Origin: a virus
IMG/VR virus record: IMGVR_UViG_3300044695_001704
Location: 1 to 37,829 of that record
Strand: one strand, 5' to 3'
DNA: 37,829 nt
Under the pieces are notes generated by a model. The model had not been told where the DNA came from. It made no database searches and was given only the letters and a program-made list of their open reading frames with translations. Positions within the stretch are counted from its first letter, which is position 1. Each line of letters starts with the position of its first letter. The translations under genes and the position numbers were made by a program. Below, piece by piece: positions 6,317 to 35,374 of this stretch.

Positions 6317-6772
6317 TTACACCTTGTATTGCGTTGAGCCATCAGCACCGTACCATTCTTCGCCAGCGCTAGAAGGTAGAGTGCCATTGATGTATTTTTG
6401 AACTGAATAAAAGGTAGCGCCAGCTTTACCAAAAACACCACCATGCCATGAGGTAGGTAGTATCCTGATAGGCATCATTGAACCTTCCATCTCTGAGCTA
6501 TAAAACTGACCATTATTTTCAAAGACTACATCGCCAGAATTGAAAACCTCATAACTATCCATATTCGGATGAACATGCAGTTTTATTTCAGTATTAGGCG
6601 GCACATGAATCAACTGAACTTGATAGACATCACTTCGATAGACATTAAAAAGTGTGACTGTTTTTCCTAGATCATCTTTATAGGTATAAATTGGATCATC
6701 AAGGGGTATATTGAGTGGTCTACCATTGCTAAACCACCAATTTAGAAAGCTAGTTAAGTCATCGTATATCAT
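6317..6772 (-). CDS. Cupin-fold protein
   Basis: This is a 151-residue single-domain cupin. KLHVHPNMDSYEVFNSGD supplies H66, H68 and E75 in the first cupin box, and H110 in TSWHGG fits the second, giving a complete candidate metal site. Cupins include isomerases, dioxygenases and binding proteins, so the reaction cannot be named. Its ATG overlaps the previous gene's stop, and that gene's terminal glycine codons (GGTGGTGG) provide the Shine-Dalgarno. Adjacent to a glycosyltransferase-like gene, it could make or modify a sugar used on the particle; that is inference. Confidence 0.7.
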   Translation of the reverse strand: MIYDDLTSFLNWWFSNGRPLNIPLDDPIYTYKDDLGKTVTLFNVYRSDVYQVQLIHVPPNTEIKLHVHPNMDSYEVFNSGDVVFENNGQFYSSEMEGSMMPIRILPTSWHGGVFGKAGATFYSVQKYINGTLPSSAGEEWYGADGSTQYKV

Positions 6773-24051: not shown

Positions 24052-24278
24052 TTTAGCTCATCCTCTTCCATCATATCCTGCCAACGCCCCAAAGCATCAA
24101 TAGCTTCTTGAACATCTTGTTCAATGTCCTTTGCTCCTCTATCACCAGCGCACAACAACTTTTTAATTGCATGTTGCAGACATGGATCAGTAACACCGTA
24201 CAATGAAAGTACACGGTAAACATCAACAGCATTTAAATGAACTGTATTTTTAAAATAATGATTGTATGTATTTTTCAT
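24048..24278 (-). CDS. Conserved phage protein (DVYRVLxLYGVTDPCLQHAIKKLL)
   Basis: This is a 76-residue protein; ATG 24278 overlaps the endonuclease stop (ATGA). HLNAVDVYRVLSLYGVTDPC followed by LQHAIKKLLCAGDRGAKDIE and EAIDALGRWQDM closely matches, from memory, a widespread family of 75-100 residue proteins in Burkholderia, Bordetella and other proteobacterial phages, always near early or packaging genes. Its role is unknown. It is an argument for a beta- or gammaproteobacterial host range. Confidence 0.85.
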   Translation of the reverse strand: MKNTYNHYFKNTVHLNAVDVYRVLSLYGVTDPCLQHAIKKLLCAGDRGAKDIEQDVQEAIDALGRWQDMMEEDELK

Positions 24279-24778
24279 ATTTTTTTGTTTTCTACCCAAA
24301 ATAGATGACTCTCTCTTTTAGCTTTTAAATAAGCTTCATAAGCCTCTTTTGCAGTGTTGAAAAGTCCTAAGTGTATTCGTTTTTTATTTACCATTATTTG
24401 TGATTGCCATTTTTTAACTCGTTTATACCAATGAACACCCCTTAACCCTGATGTGTTATCAATTCTTGGACTTGAAACATTTTGCATATTTTCTTGATCT
24501 GTAGCTAATCTTAAATTAACTATACGATTGTCGTCTTTAACTTCATTAATATGATCTAAATCATTTTCAGGTAATTCTCCGTATACGTATAACCATGCAA
24601 GACGGTGTGATAGATATAATTTCTTATTAGTTCTAATTTGAATATATCCATCTTTGCGTTTAGTTCCTGAAACCGAATTAGCTTTAACGCATCCTTTACT
24701 TACCAGCCAAGTAAACAAACCAGTTTCATGGTCATAAGATAAAAGTTCTTTAAGTCTTTGTTGTGTAAGTTCTGTCAT
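24275..24778 (-). CDS. HNH endonuclease with AP2 DNA-binding domain
   Basis: This is a 167-residue protein from ATG 24778, eight bases after AAGGAA. An N-terminal part (ELTQQRLKELLSYDHETGLF) is followed by the HNH core LSHRLAWLYVYG...LDHINEVKDDNRIVNLR, then an AP2/ERF-like domain (SGLRGVHWYKRVKKWQSQIM and HLGLFNTAKEAYEAYL). This domain set defines stand-alone phage homing endonucleases that cut DNA and bias inheritance of the site. It lies beside the terminase genes, a frequent place for them. An HNH nuclease aiding packaging is a less likely alternative. Confidence 0.85.
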   Translation of the reverse strand: MTELTQQRLKELLSYDHETGLFTWLVSKGCVKANSVSGTKRKDGYIQIRTNKKLYLSHRLAWLYVYGELPENDLDHINEVKDDNRIVNLRLATDQENMQNVSSPRIDNTSGLRGVHWYKRVKKWQSQIMVNKKRIHLGLFNTAKEAYEAYLKAKRESHLFWVENKKI

Positions 24779-24871
24779 TTGAAAATTCCTTAAGCATAGA
24801 ATTATTAAGCGAAAAGTTATGTGGCAACCTTGCTTAAGGGTGTTCATCTTCGATTGACTAGCCACAGTTTT

Positions 24872-28382: not shown

Positions 28383-29060
28383 ATGAAAACTTGTAAAAAA
28401 TGTAATATAGAAAAGCATTTAGATTTATTTTATAAAGCTAAAAGCAATAAAGATGGTTATAACAACGTTTGCGCTGATTGTGTTAAAGAAAAAGTTAATA
28501 AGTATAGATTAGATAACATTGAAGCTATTACTGAAAAAAAAGCTCAATATTATAAAAAAAATACTGAAAGATTAAATGCTAAAAGCAAAGCATGGTATGA
28601 GAAAAATAAAGATCATGCTTTGCAATTATCTAAGATTTGGCAACAAAACAATCCAGAAAAAAGAACTGAAATACAAAAGAAATATTACTTAAATGGCGGT
28701 AAAGAAAAAAAACTAGAATGGCATGAAAAAAATAAAGATAAAAGAAGTCTTTATTACAAAGAATATAGAAAAAATAACATAAATGATATTAGAAGAAATA
28801 ACAGTAAATATCAAAAACAAAACCCAAAAAAAGGGTTGCATAGATGCAGATTAAGACAAATGCAAAAATTAAATGCAACTCCTTTGTGGGCTGATTTAAA
28901 TGAGATAAAAGAAATATATAAAAATTGTCCGAAAGGAATGCATGTTGATCATATCATTCCAATTAAAGGAGAATTAGTATGTGGACTCCATGTTATTAAC
29001 AATCTTCAATATTTAACAGCTTCTGATAATTTATCAAAAGGCAATAAATTTACAACATAA
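28383..29060 (+). CDS. HNH endonuclease with N-terminal zinc-binding CxxC pairs
   Basis: This is a 225-residue protein. C4/C7 and C30/C33 (CKKCN ... CADCV) bind zinc. A lysine-rich helical linker with repeated KKNxE-type segments follows. The C-terminal HNH core begins near residue 187 (MHVDHIIPIKGELVCGLHVI, then NLQYLTASDNLSKGNK). It is more AT-rich than its neighbours and lies between two recombination genes with its own promoter-like element, consistent with an inserted free-standing homing endonuclease. A structural or packaging role is unlikely here. Confidence 0.85.
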   Translation: MKTCKKCNIEKHLDLFYKAKSNKDGYNNVCADCVKEKVNKYRLDNIEAITEKKAQYYKKNTERLNAKSKAWYEKNKDHALQLSKIWQQNNPEKRTEIQKKYYLNGGKEKKLEWHEKNKDKRSLYYKEYRKNNINDIRRNNSKYQKQNPKKGLHRCRLRQMQKLNATPLWADLNEIKEIYKNCPKGMHVDHIIPIKGELVCGLHVINNLQYLTASDNLSKGNKFTT

Positions 29061-29968: not shown

Positions 29969-30832
29969 ATGGAACAACAACGTACAGAAGAATGGTTTAA
30001 AAAAAGAAATGGTCGTGTAACTGGAAGTAATGTCGGTGCAATTCTAGGATTTTCACCATTCATGAAGCCAGAAGATGTTATGCGTAATATGGTGCGTCAA
30101 TATCATGGCTACCCAAGTGAGTTTACCGGTAATGTTGCGACTAGCTATGGAACGTATAACGAACCCAATGCTTTAGCTGATTACGAATTGAAGTTTAATA
30201 CAAAAGTCGTAGAAACTGGTTTTCATACTTTTGAAGATTGGCTTGGAGCATCACCAGACGGTTTGATTGGGGACAATTTATTGATAGAGATTAAATGCCC
30301 ATATGGGTTGCGTGACAAGAACCCACCAGAATTTAAAAGCATAGACTACCAAACGCATTACTGGTTACAGATACAAATCCAATTATTTGTTACTGGTCGC
30401 CAATGGTGTCATTTTTACCAATGGTCTGCACACGGTTACATGCTTGAAACAGTGCAATTTAATCCATTAGCTATTGAAGAATATTTACCAAAATTAAAAG
30501 ACTTCTACAATGAATATCTTGTTGAGCGTGAACTACCGCAGGCAAAAAAGTATCTTGAAGAAAAACGCCAACAAGTTAGGTGCGAAGGACAAGTTGATCG
30601 CTATTTAATGTTAGCAGAGCAAATAAAAGAGCTTGAAGCAGAAAAGAAAAGATTGTTGGATGAAATAGTTAAGTTAGCAGATGGTAAGGATAGTGAAATT
30701 AATGGTCACAAACTAACACAAGTACACCGTGAAGGCGCTATATCCTACGCTAAAGCCATAAAAGAGCTAATGCCTGATGCAGACCTAACTAAATACCAGT
30801 CTGCTCCTAGTAGTTATTGGAGATTGACATGA
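29969..30832 (+). CDS. YqaJ/lambda-Exo-type recombination exonuclease
   Basis: This is a 287-residue protein. RTEEWFKKRNGRVTGSNVGA starts the YqaJ fold. E65 in GTYNEPNALA, D97 in GASPDG and E107-x-K109 in LIEIKC form the PD-(D/E)xK active site, and the motif YWLQIQIQLFVTG follows. A C-terminal coiled coil (LAEQIKELEAEKKRLLDEIV) probably assembles the ring. It resects DNA ends to give 3' strands for the Sak4-like protein. Its stop overlaps the ATG of the PP-loop gene (ATGA), linking the recombination set to the odd cassette that follows. Confidence 0.9.
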   Translation: MEQQRTEEWFKKRNGRVTGSNVGAILGFSPFMKPEDVMRNMVRQYHGYPSEFTGNVATSYGTYNEPNALADYELKFNTKVVETGFHTFEDWLGASPDGLIGDNLLIEIKCPYGLRDKNPPEFKSIDYQTHYWLQIQIQLFVTGRQWCHFYQWSAHGYMLETVQFNPLAIEEYLPKLKDFYNEYLVERELPQAKKYLEEKRQQVRCEGQVDRYLMLAEQIKELEAEKKRLLDEIVKLADGKDSEINGHKLTQVHREGAISYAKAIKELMPDADLTKYQSAPSSYWRLT

Positions 30833-32130
30833 GAACTTATAACAGAAATAAGAATGTTTGGGATGCAGGCGTAGAAAGATTAGATTTTATATTTAATAAT
30901 TTTGAAAGAATATATATTTCATTTTCAGGTGGCAAAGATTCTGGAGTAATGCTTAATTTTGTTTTGAAATATATGAGGGAAAAAGGAATAACAAAAAAAA
31001 TAGGTATTCAAATTTTAGACAATGAAGCAAATTATGAATTGTCTGTAGAGTTTATGCACAGAATACTTGATTCAAATAGAGATTTGCTTGAAATTTATTG
31101 GTGTTGTTTGCCAATAACGCTTCCTTGCACAATAAGTTCGTATGCAGTTGAATGGCAATGCTGGGGTAATAGAGATAAAGAAAGATGGATACGTCCTATG
31201 CCAAAACAAGATTACATTGTTAATTTTGAAAATCATAATTTTCCATTTTTTGAAGAAGATATGCCATACGATAAATTCTGGGATGGATTTTCAGAATGGT
31301 ATTCACAAGGCAAAACTTGCGCAAATTTAATTGGAATTAGAACTGTTGAAAGTTTAAACAGGTTTAGAGCAATTATGAATCAACGCAAGGAAACATTAGG
31401 CGGTCAAATGTGGACAAAAAAGAATACTGAACATTCTTATAATTGTTACCCCATTTATGATTGGAGAACAGAAGATGTTTGGACGGCTAATTATATATAT
31501 GATTGGGATTACAACAAACTTTACGATATTTTTTATAAAGCAGGTATTCCAGTTCATAGAATGAGGGTTGCGTCTCCATTTATGTCTGAGTCTAAATCTA
31601 GTTTAGGCTTGTATCGAGTTATTGATCCTCATACATGGGCTAAATTATGTGCCAGAGTACAAGGTGCTAATTTTATAGCAACTTATGGAAAACAACTTAA
31701 TTACAATACTTTTAAACTTCCAGAAGGCCATACATGGAAATCATTTGTTAAATTTTTATTAGCAACTTTACCGGAGGAAGTTTCTATAAATTTTAAAATG
31801 CGGTTTGTTCAGTCTATAAAATACTGGGGTAGAGTTGGGCAAACCGTATCAGACAGCACTTTAAAACAACTAAGAGAAAGTAACCGTATAAAGATAAAAG
31901 AAAACGGATTAACTCCTCATGGAAGAAAAGACAAAATTAGAGTGATAATTAAAAAATACCCAGACCATACTGATGATATAAGAAATAATAATAGTGAAAT
32001 TGCGTCATGGAAACGATTTGCAATTACTATTTTAAAAAATGACCATACCTGTAAATACATGGGATTTGCTCCAACAAAAGAACAAACATTGAGACAACGT
32101 AATATTATGGAAAAATATAAAAAATTATGA
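30829..32130 (+). CDS. IbrA-like PP-loop ATPase / PAPS-reductase fold with DUF3440
   Basis: This is a 433-residue protein from ATG 30829; GGAG lies about seven bases upstream, and ATG 30817 is inside the exonuclease. SFSGGKDSG (SGGKDS 33-38) is the PP-loop that binds ATP in PAPS reductase/ATP-pyrophosphatase enzymes. CCLPITLPCTISSYAVEWQC and DWRTEDVWTANYIYDWDYN are family segments, and RMRVASPFMSESKSSLGLYR begins the DUF3440-type region. IbrA pairs with ParB-like IbrB in mobile elements; their reaction is unproven. Here an ectC gene separates them. The C-terminal RFAITILKNDHTCKYMGF recurs in a small downstream protein. Confidence 0.85.
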   Translation: MRTYNRNKNVWDAGVERLDFIFNNFERIYISFSGGKDSGVMLNFVLKYMREKGITKKIGIQILDNEANYELSVEFMHRILDSNRDLLEIYWCCLPITLPCTISSYAVEWQCWGNRDKERWIRPMPKQDYIVNFENHNFPFFEEDMPYDKFWDGFSEWYSQGKTCANLIGIRTVESLNRFRAIMNQRKETLGGQMWTKKNTEHSYNCYPIYDWRTEDVWTANYIYDWDYNKLYDIFYKAGIPVHRMRVASPFMSESKSSLGLYRVIDPHTWAKLCARVQGANFIATYGKQLNYNTFKLPEGHTWKSFVKFLLATLPEEVSINFKMRFVQSIKYWGRVGQTVSDSTLKQLRESNRIKIKENGLTPHGRKDKIRVIIKKYPDHTDDIRNNNSEIASWKRFAITILKNDHTCKYMGFAPTKEQTLRQRNIMEKYKKL

Positions 32131-32510
32131 AAATAATTAAATTGCATGAATTAAAAGGAACAGAAAGAGAAGTTAAATGCCCAAAAGGAGGTTTTTTAAG
32201 CAGAAGGTTTTTGCTTGAAAAAGACAATATGGGGTTTTCTGTAACAAATACAATAATACCTCCAAATGGAGAGCAAAATTGGCATTATAAAAATCATCTT
32301 GAAGCTTGTTATTGCATAAAAGGACATGGGTGTATTACAAATAAAAATACAGGAGAAAAGCATAGGATATTGCCTGGCACAATGTACGTTCTTGATAACA
32401 ATGATCCGCATTCATTTATAGCTTTTTCTACAGTAGAGCTGCTATGCGTATTTAACCCTCCATTAACAGGACTTGAAGTCCACAATAAGGATAATTCATA
32501 TGACATTTAA
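32127..32510 (+). CDS. ectC: Ectoine synthase homologue (EctC), lone copy in a phage
   Basis: This is a 127-residue cupin matching EctC over its whole length: ELKGTEREV near the start, MGFSVTNTIIPP, WHYKNHLEACYCIKGHG, PGTMYVLDNNDPHSF and CVFNPPLTGLEVHN. EctC cyclises N-gamma-acetyl-diaminobutyrate to ectoine. E59, Y87 and H95 align with the iron ligands reported for EctC, and E117/H119 with other active-site residues (from memory), so it looks functional. No ectA or ectB is present; solitary EctC proteins may act on other substrates. It overlaps both the IbrA- and IbrB-like genes, hence is part of that unit. Confidence 0.85.
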   Translation: MKIIKLHELKGTEREVKCPKGGFLSRRFLLEKDNMGFSVTNTIIPPNGEQNWHYKNHLEACYCIKGHGCITNKNTGEKHRILPGTMYVLDNNDPHSFIAFSTVELLCVFNPPLTGLEVHNKDNSYDI

Positions 32511-33027
32511 ATCTCCAGTTTATAACGTACTTTGCGTTCCATTTAGCCAAGTAACTGCAAATGATTACAACCCTAATGCAGTTGCTCCACCTGAAATGGC
32601 TTTATTAGAAACATCAATATGGGAAGATGGATATACGCAGCCAATTGTTACTTATTATGATGATACAAAAGACATTTACATTGTAGTAGATGGTTTTCAC
32701 CGCTATTTAACAATGAAAAATAGTGAGCGCATAAGAGAGCGTGAAAATAACATGCTGCCAATTGTTGTAATTAAAAAAGAACTTGGCGACAGAATGGCAT
32801 CTACTATCAGACATAACAGAGCTAGAGGATCTCATAATATTGAATTAATGAGTACTATAGTTTCTGAGCTTGTTGAAATGGGGAAAGGAGATTTCTGGAT
32901 ATGTAAACATATTGGAATGAGCGTTGATGAGCTATTAAGATTAAAACAAATAACTGGCGTTGCTGCTTTATTTCAAAATCGTAGTTTTTCTGATAGTTGG
33001 GAAGCAGATGAAGAAGAATGGGCTTAG
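32500..33027 (+). CDS. IbrB-like ParB/sulfiredoxin-fold protein
   Basis: This is a 175-residue protein from ATG 32500. NDYNPN (21-26), EDGYTQPIV, VVDGFHRYL (62-70) and IRHNRARGSHNIELM (103-117) give the complete ParB N-terminal/Srx nucleotide-binding fold. A helical C-terminal part (LVEMGKGDFWICKHIGMS) reads like a DNA-binding HTH and ends in acidic EADEEEW. IbrB-type proteins partner IbrA PP-loop enzymes. Here the ectC gene is inserted between the pair with overlapping ends. A role as a nucleotide-dependent switch or nuclease is possible; no experiment links it to ectoine chemistry. Confidence 0.85.
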   Translation: MTFKSPVYNVLCVPFSQVTANDYNPNAVAPPEMALLETSIWEDGYTQPIVTYYDDTKDIYIVVDGFHRYLTMKNSERIRERENNMLPIVVIKKELGDRMASTIRHNRARGSHNIELMSTIVSELVEMGKGDFWICKHIGMSVDELLRLKQITGVAALFQNRSFSDSWEADEEEWA

Positions 33028-33391
33028 GATTTATCATCCTTGGTGGCTATGGGAGTGCTATAAAGCAGGATTTTATAGCACTATTCCACCTGATGGAAAA
33101 ACAAAAGAACAGTGCAAAGAAGAATATGCAATTTTTTTATCAGATATTGAGTTGTTTAATTATTCAATGGATGAAGTAATAAAAACATGGAAATATTCTT
33201 CAGAGCATTTTTTATCTAATCCAAGTATAAATAGAATAGCTTGGCTTGGGCAGTCATCAATGTGTTTGGCAAATAAAATACCAAGCACATTTAAAAGTGG
33301 CTTCTTTTTATTAAATGATTATCAAAAAATAGAAGCAAACAATGCAGCAAGGATAAAATTAAATGATTGGGAAAATACAAGATTATATTAA
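33008..33391 (+). CDS. IbrA/IbrB-associated protein (HPWWLWECYKAGFY)
   Basis: This is a 127-residue protein from ATG 33008: RIYHPWWLWECYKAGFYSTI, PPDGKTKEQCKEEYAIFLSD, then FLSNPSINRIAWLGQSSMCL. From memory, proteins with WECxxAGFY ... SNxxINRxAWLGQAxxC follow IbrA/IbrB genes in other phages, so it appears to be a standing partner of this system. No catalytic motif is known; the conserved aromatic and cysteine residues suggest a binding function. It overlaps the IbrB-like gene by 20 bases and the next gene by 29 bases. Confidence 0.75.
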   Translation: MKKNGLRIYHPWWLWECYKAGFYSTIPPDGKTKEQCKEEYAIFLSDIELFNYSMDEVIKTWKYSSEHFLSNPSINRIAWLGQSSMCLANKIPSTFKSGFFLLNDYQKIEANNAARIKLNDWENTRLY

Positions 33392-33590
33392 TAAATGGAA
33401 AGAACAGGGTTATCCAATAGATATTCCTGATGAAGTTCCTGTTGAATTAATGAAAAATAACTTAGCTCCATCATACAAAGCTATAGCAATAGCTATTTTA
33501 AAAAACGATCATGGTTTATTAACGCTTGGCAATACAGCAAAGCCATCAAAATGGTATTCTTTTTTTAAACGTATTGAACTAAGTAATTAA
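33363..33590 (+). CDS. Small DUF3440-tail-like protein closing the IbrA/ectC cassette
   Basis: This is a 75-residue protein: IQDYINKWKEQGYPIDIPDE, then YKAIAIAILKNDHGLLTLGN and KPSKWYSFFKRIE. The piece AIAIAILKNDHGLLTLG resembles the C-terminus of the IbrA-like protein (FAITILKNDHTCKYMG), so the domain exists both fused and free in the same cassette. Such small proteins accompany IbrA homologues in phages, from memory. It ends exactly where the helicase ATG begins, so the cassette is co-translated with the replication genes on both sides. Confidence 0.75.
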   Translation: MIGKIQDYINKWKEQGYPIDIPDEVPVELMKNNLAPSYKAIAIAILKNDHGLLTLGNTAKPSKWYSFFKRIELSN

Positions 33591-35374
33591 TGATTATGAA
33601 ACTCCGCCCCTACCAACAACAAGCGCATGATGCTGCTATAGACTGGATAAAGAAATGTACTGACCCATGCGTATTAGAATTGCCAACAGGGAGTGGCAAA
33701 TCTTTAATTGTTGCAGCAATAGCCAACACATTGCACCAAGTTAGTGGTGGAAAGCATATATTATGCCTTGTACCATCAAAAGAGCTGTTAGAACAAAATG
33801 CAGAAAAATACCGAGATACTGGCAATGAATGTAGCTTGTTTAGCGCCAGCGTTGGGGAAACGTGTTTAAAACATCCAGTTGTTTTTGGCACACCTGTTAG
33901 CGTCAAGAATAAAATACACAGATTTGGTTCTAAATTTTGTGCTGTTGTATTAGATGAAGCGCATCGCATAACACCAACGGTAAAAAGTATTATTGAATCT
34001 TTAGTTTCCTGTAATCCTAATCTGCGTGTGATAGGTCTTTCAGCTACTCCATACAGGCTTGGTGATGGATATATATATAGAATGGATGAGAATGGCAATG
34101 CTTATGGAAATGATAAAACTAAGAACCCTTATTTTACTGCAAGAGTATTTACTGTTTATGCCAGAGATTTAATACAGCAAGGATACTTAACAAAACCTGT
34201 CATTGGTGCAATTAATTCAGGTCATTATGAAACCCTGGATATGCAACTTAATAGCATGGGTAAGTTTGCAAAAGCAGATGTTGATAGAGCTTATCATGGT
34301 CAAGGAAGGCTCACAAGTGCGATTGTAGGTGATATTGTTTCGCAAGCAGTAGATAGACAAGGTGTAATGATTTTCTCTGCGACAGTACAACATGCTCACG
34401 AGGTTATGCAGTCTTTACCACCAAGTTTATCTTGCATAGTTACAGGAGAAACACCTAAGTTGGAACGTGAACAAATACTGCGAAAATTCAAAGCTAGGCA
34501 ATTAAAATATTTAGTTAATGTTTCTGTGCTTTGTGTTGGCTTTGACTGTGTACACGTTGATTTAATAGCTATTTTAAGAGCTACAGAGTCAGTTAGTTTG
34601 CTCCAACAAATAATCGGCAGAGGATTGCGTATTGATAACAATAAAGATGATTGTTTGATACTGGATTATGCTGAAAATATTAGTCGTCATTGTCCTGATG
34701 GTGACTTATTTAATCCTGAGATAGAAGCATCAGGTGATTACGGAGCTGGTGAACCAATCAAAGCTAGATGCCCACAGTGCAATGCTAATAATGAATTTGC
34801 GCCAGTGCTTAATGAAGCAAAGCATGAAGTTGATGTTAATGGTTATTTTATTGATCTTGAAGGCATACGATTAGAAACAGAATATGGAGAGATGCCAGCG
34901 CATCATGGAAGAAGATGCTTTGGTGAGGTATTTAATAAAACTATTAGAAAACTTGTTAGATGTGATTATCGTTGGACGTTTAAACCATGCCCACATTGTG
35001 AAGAAGAAAATGATATTGCTGCACGTTATTGTTGCAGTTGCAAGGGAGAACTAATTGACCCAAATAGTAAGTTAGTAGCAGACTTCCAAATGAAAAAGAA
35101 AGACCCGACGCAAATCCAAACAGATAAGGTTGTTGCAATGCGAGCAACTCCCACACTAAGCAAAGCAGGGAACGAGTGCATAAGAGTTGATTTTATAACT
35201 GAATATAGATCATTTCCTGTTTGGTTTACGATGAAAATGCAGAGTAGCTATGATGCATTTATGAAGTTTACAGATAATGGTTTTACAACACCAAATACCA
35301 TCACATATAAAAAGAGTGGTGATTTCTTTAAAATTTACGACTACAACAGGACAGCTGATGAAGTTCCACAATGA
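33590..35374 (+). CDS. SF2 DEAD/DEAH-box helicase with zinc-binding C-terminus
   Basis: This is a 594-residue helicase. Q-type start LRPYQQQAHDA, Walker A PTGSGKS (32-38), DEAH (122-125), SATPYR (151-156) and motif VI QIIGRGLR (340-347) are all present. The C-terminal part carries C394/C397 and C467/C470/C481 or 482/C484, likely zinc ribbons contacting DNA. Relatives (RadD/RecQ-like SF2 proteins in phages) act in replication or recombination. ATG 33590 is used; 33596 (second Met) is possible. It overlaps the nuclease gene that follows. Confidence 0.9.
   Translation: MIMKLRPYQQQAHDAAIDWIKKCTDPCVLELPTGSGKSLIVAAIANTLHQVSGGKHILCLVPSKELLEQNAEKYRDTGNECSLFSASVGETCLKHPVVFGTPVSVKNKIHRFGSKFCAVVLDEAHRITPTVKSIIESLVSCNPNLRVIGLSATPYRLGDGYIYRMDENGNAYGNDKTKNPYFTARVFTVYARDLIQQGYLTKPVIGAINSGHYETLDMQLNSMGKFAKADVDRAYHGQGRLTSAIVGDIVSQAVDRQGVMIFSATVQHAHEVMQSLPPSLSCIVTGETPKLEREQILRKFKARQLKYLVNVSVLCVGFDCVHVDLIAILRATESVSLLQQIIGRGLRIDNNKDDCLILDYAENISRHCPDGDLFNPEIEASGDYGAGEPIKARCPQCNANNEFAPVLNEAKHEVDVNGYFIDLEGIRLETEYGEMPAHHGRRCFGEVFNKTIRKLVRCDYRWTFKPCPHCEEENDIAARYCCSCKGELIDPNSKLVADFQMKKKDPTQIQTDKVVAMRATPTLSKAGNECIRVDFITEYRSFPVWFTMKMQSSYDAFMKFTDNGFTTPNTITYKKSGDFFKIYDYNRTADEVPQ

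Follow-up and report, generated by a model that had tools for sequence, protein, structure and literature searches.

A conserved phage gene module linking a specialised EctC-like cupin to IbrA-like and ParB-like proteins

IbrA and IbrB, which have been called coactivators of prophage gene expression and which we take to be YbdN and YbdM of E. coli, are a PP-loop protein with a DUF3440 domain and an adjoining ParB-like protein. A PP-loop domain is also present in asparagine synthetase. Ligase logic of the PP-loop type is found in phage DNA hypermodification by CmoA-CmoX-CmoY. In that pathway glycine is joined to the 5-carboxymethylcytosine of phage DNA by a ligase resembling asparagine synthetase, and ParBc-domain proteins are often encoded nearby (PMC12783734, accessible text). 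Dnd phosphorothioation combines a PAPS-reductase-like enzyme (DndC) with a partner of the ParB superfamily (DndB), as set out in the available part of PMC10853773. In ectoine synthase (EctC) of P. lautus, iron is bound by E57, Y84 and H92, and Trp-21 and Asn-38 are listed among the substrate-contacting residues; Trp-21 is described as invariant across 437 EctC proteins of ect clusters and as required for activity, with 9.7% left in the W21A mutant (PMC6344544, accessible text). The same text states that the role of orphan EctC proteins, encoded apart from such clusters, is unclear.

The DNA analyzed here (referred to as the window) is a stretch of 37,829 nucleotides of viral origin (IMG/VR record IMGVR_UViG_3300044695_001704), in which genes for an EctC-like, an IbrA-like and a ParB-like protein lie side by side. 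The EctC-like protein resembles EctC of P. lautus (5ONM–5ONO) and S. alaskensis (5BXX) in its fold (Z 19–20), its length, the three iron ligands and the equivalents of Ser-23, Arg-25, Thr-40, Tyr-52 and Phe-106. However, the phage proteins differ from EctC in that Trp-21 is replaced, Val is changed to Cys after the iron-binding Glu, the ectA/ectB context is absent, and the gene is linked to IbrA and linked or fused to ParB. The IbrA-like protein, in turn, is not an asparagine synthetase.

Comparative analysis showed that phages share a conserved module with a specialised EctC-like cupin. A search of openly available journal papers found no description of an IbrA-EctC-ParB module. Our main reading, to which we assign a probability of about 40%, is that the cupin is an iron-dependent, ring-closing enzyme in a phage modification pathway that is encoded by the five genes and probably directed to DNA.

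Genetic organization of the module

The features of the region are summarized in Table 1. The EctC-like ORF overlaps the IbrA gene by 4 bases and the ParB gene by 11 bases, and all five module genes overlap in a chain. The preliminary description of this DNA had reported a full-length EctC-like protein, and an intact 127-aa ORF is indeed located exactly there; its designation as a "lone" ectC is misleading, since the ORF overlaps the IbrA and ParB genes and is part of a conserved five-gene module.

Table 1. Predicted genes of the module and of the DNA directly adjacent to it (positions refer to the window).
Feature	Position	Strand	Evidence
YqaJ/RecE-type exonuclease, overlaps IbrA; context, not a constant part	29969..30832	+	PF09588 7e-21; related gene in 9/92 loci
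IbrA-like, 433 aa, PAPS-reductase superfamily PP-loop ATP-pyrophosphatase + DUF3440	30829..32130	+	DUF3440 4.9e-60; PAPS_reduct 1.4e-9; phrog_2302 1.9e-106
EctC-like cupin, 127 aa	32127..32510	+	PF06339 E 2.2e-44; pLDDT 94.2; top fold matches EctC
ParB-like, 175 aa, ParB/sulfiredoxin domain, then KorB/ParB-like DNA-binding helical domain	32500..33027	+	phrog_2159 1.2e-74; KorB fold match
X150, 127 aa, small conserved protein	33008..33391	+	homologue in 88/92 representative phage loci
Y75, small, resembles C-terminal part of DUF3440	33363..33590	+	DUF3440 5.1e-4; phrog_15645 3.3e-5
Superfamily 2 helicase, next gene downstream of Y75; neighbour, not a fixed member	33590..35374	+	ResIII 5.8e-24; DEAD 9.9e-17; related ORF in 11/92 loci

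The IbrA-like protein contains an SGGKDS loop and, as judged from 83 relatives, near-invariant Cys residues at positions 92, 93, 100, 111, 274 and 408. In contrast to the enzyme of Dnd systems, it is only weakly similar to DndC (1.3e-7) and scores far below the cut-off of the corresponding family (TIGR03183, 21.8 bits vs 290.4). A search of solved structures with the IbrA profile gave no match, and a search of a defence library gave weak matches to DndC and BrxP only. The DGFHR motif of the ParB-like protein is invariant among 75 relatives. The model of this protein is moderately confident (pLDDT 77.5) and matches KorB (8QA9) with a Z score of 13.3 over 143 residues, the nucleotide- and DNA-binding parts both being covered; weaker fold matches were obtained with Noc (9.5), sulfiredoxin (Z 9.5) and serine kinases.

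X150 belongs to no Pfam or PHROG family. Y75 is conserved 3′ of X150 in most loci; its profile matched 89 of the 92 representative loci, a count that was set aside, as the profile included one X150 protein (of L015) and also matches the end of IbrA. A frameshift or sequencing error behind these two small ORFs was ruled out, since the two-ORF layout repeats in L013 and elsewhere. The helicase was likewise dismissed as a fixed partner on account of its low frequency (Table 1), and contamination of the window with host DNA was excluded by the presence of the module in isolated phages.

Elsewhere in the window, a second cupin-like protein with weak WbuC and PCO_ADO matches is encoded at positions 6317–6772, on the opposite strand and far from EctC. 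Positions 24275–24865 (minus strand) encode a protein with HNH_3 and AP2 domains, typical of free-standing homing endonucleases, and a further HNH-like ORF is located at positions 28383–29060.

The EctC-like cupin and its active site

The window ORF is a member of the ectoine synthase family, scoring 151.2 bits against PF06339 (Ectoine_synth; cut-off 27) and 153.6 bits against the NCBIfam ectoine synthase subfamily NF009806 (cut-off 128). The solved chains nearest to it are ectoine synthases (5ONM, 5ONN, 5ONO and 5BXX). An AlphaFold2 model, built from an alignment of 76 phage relatives, had a mean pLDDT of 94.2 and a pTM of 0.86. Its best EctC match gave a Z score of 20.4 (rmsd 0.8, 113 aligned residues), further solved EctC structures gave 18.9–19.0, and other cupins 13.6 and below. 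Membership in a different cupin family, which the preliminary description had named among the outcomes that would speak against it, was thereby ruled out. Between near relatives of the gene, dN/dS is about 0.04–0.08.

In a sequence alignment with P. lautus EctC, residues E59, Y87 and H95 of the window protein occupy the positions of E57, Y84 and H92, which bind iron (ligand list from the accessible text of PMC6344544), and the five further positions named above are retained. Trp-21 is replaced by F23 and Asn-38 by T40. The active-site residues had initially been considered intact; this holds for the metal site (E59, Y87, H95) but not for the substrate pocket, in which these two replacements occur. 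Two other residues highlighted at that stage, E117 and H119, sit in the lid, and Phe-106 is the only ligand contact in the C-terminal part that the available text of PMC6344544 names. Asn-38 was dropped as a diagnostic residue, and its change carries little weight, because some operon-encoded EctC proteins have His at this position.

Among 92 phage representatives, the equivalents of E57, Y84, S23, R25, T40 and Y52 were found in every protein and that of H92 in 91, the exception being L042. The Trp-21 equivalent is missing from 91/92, where Phe, Gly, Met or Leu takes its place. Only L074 has a Trp close to the expected position; the phage proteins were scored with a looser pattern than the other sets. 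This Trp is kept in 30/30 operon EctC proteins and in 89 of 91 orphans, and in neither of two proteins from module-bearing MAGs; here "operon" denotes an EctB-like frame on the same strand not more than 2.5 kb away, and since some loci have only about 1.5 kb of flanking DNA, some "orphans" are possibly mislabelled. Two positions after the iron-binding Glu, every one of the 92 phage proteins and 85/89 orphans have Cys, whereas 30/30 operon EctC proteins have Val; a Cys-x-Cys motif after this Glu is invariant in the phage cupins. As 91/92 phage proteins lack the Trp implicated in ring closure, they may catalyse a reaction other than that of EctC, or none. Taken together, the window protein is likely to be an active iron enzyme with an altered substrate.

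Distribution and ancestry of the module

Scanning of a viral collection with an EctC profile yielded 78 contigs, of which 77 carry ParB and 73 IbrA (both in 73, ParB only in 4, neither in 1). The single negative contig, L038, which was counted as a miss, is a likely assembly chimera in which EctC is fused to the start of ParB and followed by a repeat of an upstream gene (L038:4735–5534). From the phage loci, 92 non-redundant representatives were chosen. L016 (MT835761.1), although deposited as a phage, was left out, because an EctB-like ORF upstream of its EctC gene suggests that the contig is bacterial.

ParB is present in 91 of these representatives, IbrA in 89 and X150 in 88. The gene order is IbrA-EctC-ParB in 82, other orders occur in 7, and 3 are incomplete. 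All IbrA and ParB matches (184/184) lie on the EctC strand, with median gaps of 12 and 14 bases, respectively. EctC and ParB share a single reading frame in 23/92 representatives, and 7 changes between the fused and the split state were counted among the 52 phage sequences of the tree described below. Mirror-tree correlations, calculated from 83 of the 92 loci, were significant but modest (0.27–0.48). The module was also identified in three isolated phages, namely mycobacteriophage Gaia, with EctC and ParB fused, phage Nebkiss and Pseudoalteromonas phage XCL1123; the existing annotation of the Gaia gene product is "ectoine synthase/ParB multidomain protein".

When loci were seeded with ParB, EctC was found in 79 of the 80 closest of 368. 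A different picture was obtained with IbrA, and it is here that the module departs from IbrA/IbrB. Of the IbrA homologues in 40 annotated phage records, 4, at about 67% identity, form a distinct group that is accompanied by EctC, whereas the other 36, at about 42% identity or less, are without it. EctC is therefore not needed for IbrA/ParB in general, which counts against DNA-directed ring closure. In Fusobacterium phage phiFN37 (L324), IbrA-ParB is accompanied by a second ParB-like gene that adjoins a queuine tRNA-ribosyltransferase gene, an arrangement resembling DpdA/DpdB.

One of the suggestions of the preliminary description was a neofunctionalised enzyme that works together with IbrA/IbrB. 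The partnership itself is strongly supported by the near-universal IbrA/ParB linkage, the repeated EctC-ParB fusion and the single phage-specific clade. The fusion, together with loss of the catalytic Trp, would also suit a sensor or scaffold, a non-catalytic cupin that controls ParB/IbrA through binding of a ligand or metal; binding is the role of many cupin domains. This explanation appears very unlikely, as the iron ligands, and most positions that contact the substrate, vary little or not at all among 92 divergent proteins, and some loci contain EctD-like companions (see below).

The relationship to bacterial proteins was analyzed with a tree of 122 EctC sequences (52 from phages, 2 from module-bearing MAGs, all 30 operon proteins and 38 orphans drawn at random). 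One branch with an SH-aLRT support of 99.9 separates the 54 phage and MAG-module proteins from the 68 bacterial ones in this quick tree of 130 columns, whose inner detail is weak; the phage proteins thus form a clade of their own. Because of this split, the phage branch looks old and diverse rather than like a recently acquired host osmolyte gene. Among the best 80 of 447 bacterial genome loci, the module was found in 2, on MAG contigs L160 and L173. In a plasmid search (118 records), the 30 matches listed are all on bacterial plasmids (27 named ectoine synthase and 3 without a gene name).

The nearest cellular relatives of the phage proteins are bacterial orphan EctC proteins. They resemble the phage proteins in the Cys-x-Cys after the iron-binding Glu (85/89), in frequently having Thr in place of Asn-38 and in lacking an ect operon, but differ in keeping the Trp (89/91), in falling outside the phage clade and in having other neighbours. 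Reading of the adjacent sequences by eye pointed to ketosynthase-like, ligase-like, transglutaminase-like, Rieske-like and acyl-CoA dehydrogenase-like ORFs. One orphan locus (L196) contains two tandem EctC copies.

Inserted genes, precursor genes and the proposed reaction

Inspection of the module gaps across phage loci revealed an EctD-like dioxygenase gene exactly between IbrA and EctC in three cases (L024:4150–4995, L026:4120–5001 and L075:3598–4446). The encoded proteins share with EctD the stretches WHSDFETWH (retained in all three) and DGMPRMR, and the closest solved relative, as determined for the L024 protein, is EctD 3EMR. They differ from EctD in being lodged inside the IbrA-EctC-ParB module and in scoring below the TIGR02408 equivalog cut-off of 336.5 bits (173, 285 and 189 bits for L024, L026 and L075, respectively). 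When the viral collection was searched with a profile of these EctD-like proteins, no contigs other than these three were obtained, which corresponds to 2 of 41 module-bearing records plus L024. L024 and L075 also contain a methyltransferase-like domain (with a weak family match for L024 only, the likeness in L075 having been noted by eye), which in L024 separates EctC from ParB within a single ORF. Such methyltransferases presumably resemble small-molecule O-methyltransferases. Between IbrA and EctC of another locus (L101:2491–3555), a weak match to the DGQHR domain, which we assume to belong to the ParB superfamily, was observed.

The absence of ectA, ectB and ectD from the window, reported in the preliminary description, was borne out: the window record contains no match to TIGR02406, PF00202 (the EctB class) or TIGR02408. 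Moreover, neither EctA (TIGR02406) nor a class-III aminotransferase (PF00202) was detected in any of the 41 module-bearing viral records, the window included, with phage records alone being considered. With EctD-like genes in module loci and EctA/EctB-class genes absent, a ring-acting enzyme therefore recurs where the makers of the free precursor are missing.

These data bear on the other suggestion made initially, that of an auxiliary metabolic gene with which the phage converts host N-acetyl-diaminobutyrate to ectoine for osmoprotection. It is compatible with membership in the ectoine synthase family, the iron ligands and the three EctD-like hydroxylases, and one paper interprets a viral ectoine synthase in this way (PMC13079714, accessible text). 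It is nonetheless poorly supported and, in our view, highly improbable, because 0/41 records carry ectA or an EctB-class gene; in addition, Trp is lost in 91/92 phage proteins but kept in 30/30 operon EctC proteins, and the constant partners, IbrA and ParB, have no known osmolyte role. A lone osmolyte gene was rejected as the main reading on these grounds. Overall, what the preliminary description observed was partly confirmed, and its interpretation partly supported.

The EctD-like genes and methyltransferase-like domains that adjoin EctC, as well as the metabolic ORFs seen by eye beside bacterial orphans (ketosynthase-like, ligase-like and others), would also fit a soluble product, a cyclic amino acid similar to ectoine and perhaps bearing hydroxyl or methyl groups, that acts in signalling or counter-defence or as a cofactor; IbrA would then ligate a free substrate, and ParB would have a regulatory role. 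We consider this rather unlikely, since the repeated EctC-ParB fusion links the enzyme to a protein of DNA-binding type, and the module is not regularly accompanied by a transporter gene or a biosynthetic cluster.

In one locus (L113:3256–4005), a 1-Cys peroxiredoxin occupies the EctC slot, between IbrA and a ParB of the sulfiredoxin superfamily. This replacement is easier to reconcile with redox or sulfur chemistry than with ring closure and counts against the main reading. In such a scheme, sulfur would be transferred as in Dnd systems and the cupin would act on a sulfur or redox intermediate, with no ring being closed. Membership of IbrA in the PAPS-reductase/DndC superfamily, its near-invariant Cys residues, the sulfiredoxin-like fold of the ParB model (Z 9.5) and the invariant Cys-x-Cys of the phage cupins are in line with it. 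The scheme nevertheless seems distinctly unlikely, given that the Cys-x-Cys is common to bacterial orphan EctC proteins (85/89), which are without IbrA, that L113 is a single locus, and that the EctD-like partners point to ring chemistry.

DNA-directed ring closure is favoured on the basis of the IbrA/ParB linkage, the EctC-ParB fusions, the retained iron ligands, the low dN/dS (0.04–0.08), the EctD-like and methyltransferase-like insertions, the KorB/ParB-like fold of the ParB model, the weak DndC similarity of IbrA, neighbours of DNA type and the CmoA-CmoX-CmoY precedent. Genes upstream of the module include, apart from the exonuclease of the window, those for a sliding clamp (L160), a clamp loader (L035), DnaB (L087) and a helicase (L059). 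In the proposed mechanism, IbrA would activate a carbonyl or carboxylate at the expense of ATP and then attach an amine-bearing group, and the ParB-like protein would bring the complex to DNA, presumably in preference to RNA, protein or a small molecule as target. The EctC-like enzyme, acting on a substrate larger than free acetyl-diaminobutyrate, would let the amine attack an amide carbonyl held by Fe(II), with elimination of water, to give a cyclic amidine (ectoine-like) ring; X150 and Y75 would have roles in the same pathway. In some phages an EctD-like dioxygenase may hydroxylate the ring and a methyltransferase may tailor it further. By analogy with the glycine-adding ligase described above, we infer that a diamine amide on a carboxymethylcytosine-like handle would be a natural substrate for ring closure of EctC type, for which removal of the Trp could make room.

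In one record (L035:1–1391; record G195), genes for a CmoA-like protein and a C5 DNA methyltransferase adjoin each other about 2.3 kb upstream of IbrA, and they resemble the gene pair of the carboxymethylcytosine pathway. Unlike CmoA-CmoX-CmoY systems, the window record contains no match to CmoA or a C5-methylase, and among the 41 module-bearing records, which are possibly incomplete, CmoA occurs in 1 (below the cut-off) and C5-methylases in 8 (6 over the cut-off), the latter not being taken as an enrichment. A known acyl handle on DNA is therefore not generally present, which counts against the DNA-directed reading, as do the weak linkage of the superfamily 2 helicase (11/92) and the occurrence of EctD-like genes in 3 loci only, below the equivalog cut-off. 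The most explicit form of this reading, which we regard as unlikely in its full detail, is that an ectoine-like cyclic amidine is built on phage DNA: IbrA would join a base that carries an acyl handle to a diamine (e.g. 2,4-diaminobutyrate), with guidance from the ParB-like protein; the EctC-like enzyme, whose Trp would have been lost to accommodate such a bulky substrate, would close the ring, and the EctD-like enzyme and methyltransferase would tailor the product, which may serve as camouflage against host defences. If the DNA-directed reading is true, the module would represent a new class of DNA decoration.

The results call for caution in reading viral genes for ectoine synthase or PAPS reductase as auxiliary genes of osmolyte or sulfur metabolism (cf. 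the accessible texts of PMC13079714 and PMC10232697). The existence of a large phage-specific EctC branch with constant partners makes the function of an orphan EctC testable in the culturable phages Gaia and XCL1123, and suggests that viruses have adapted ectoine-type ring-closing chemistry to a different job, perhaps the decoration of their own DNA.
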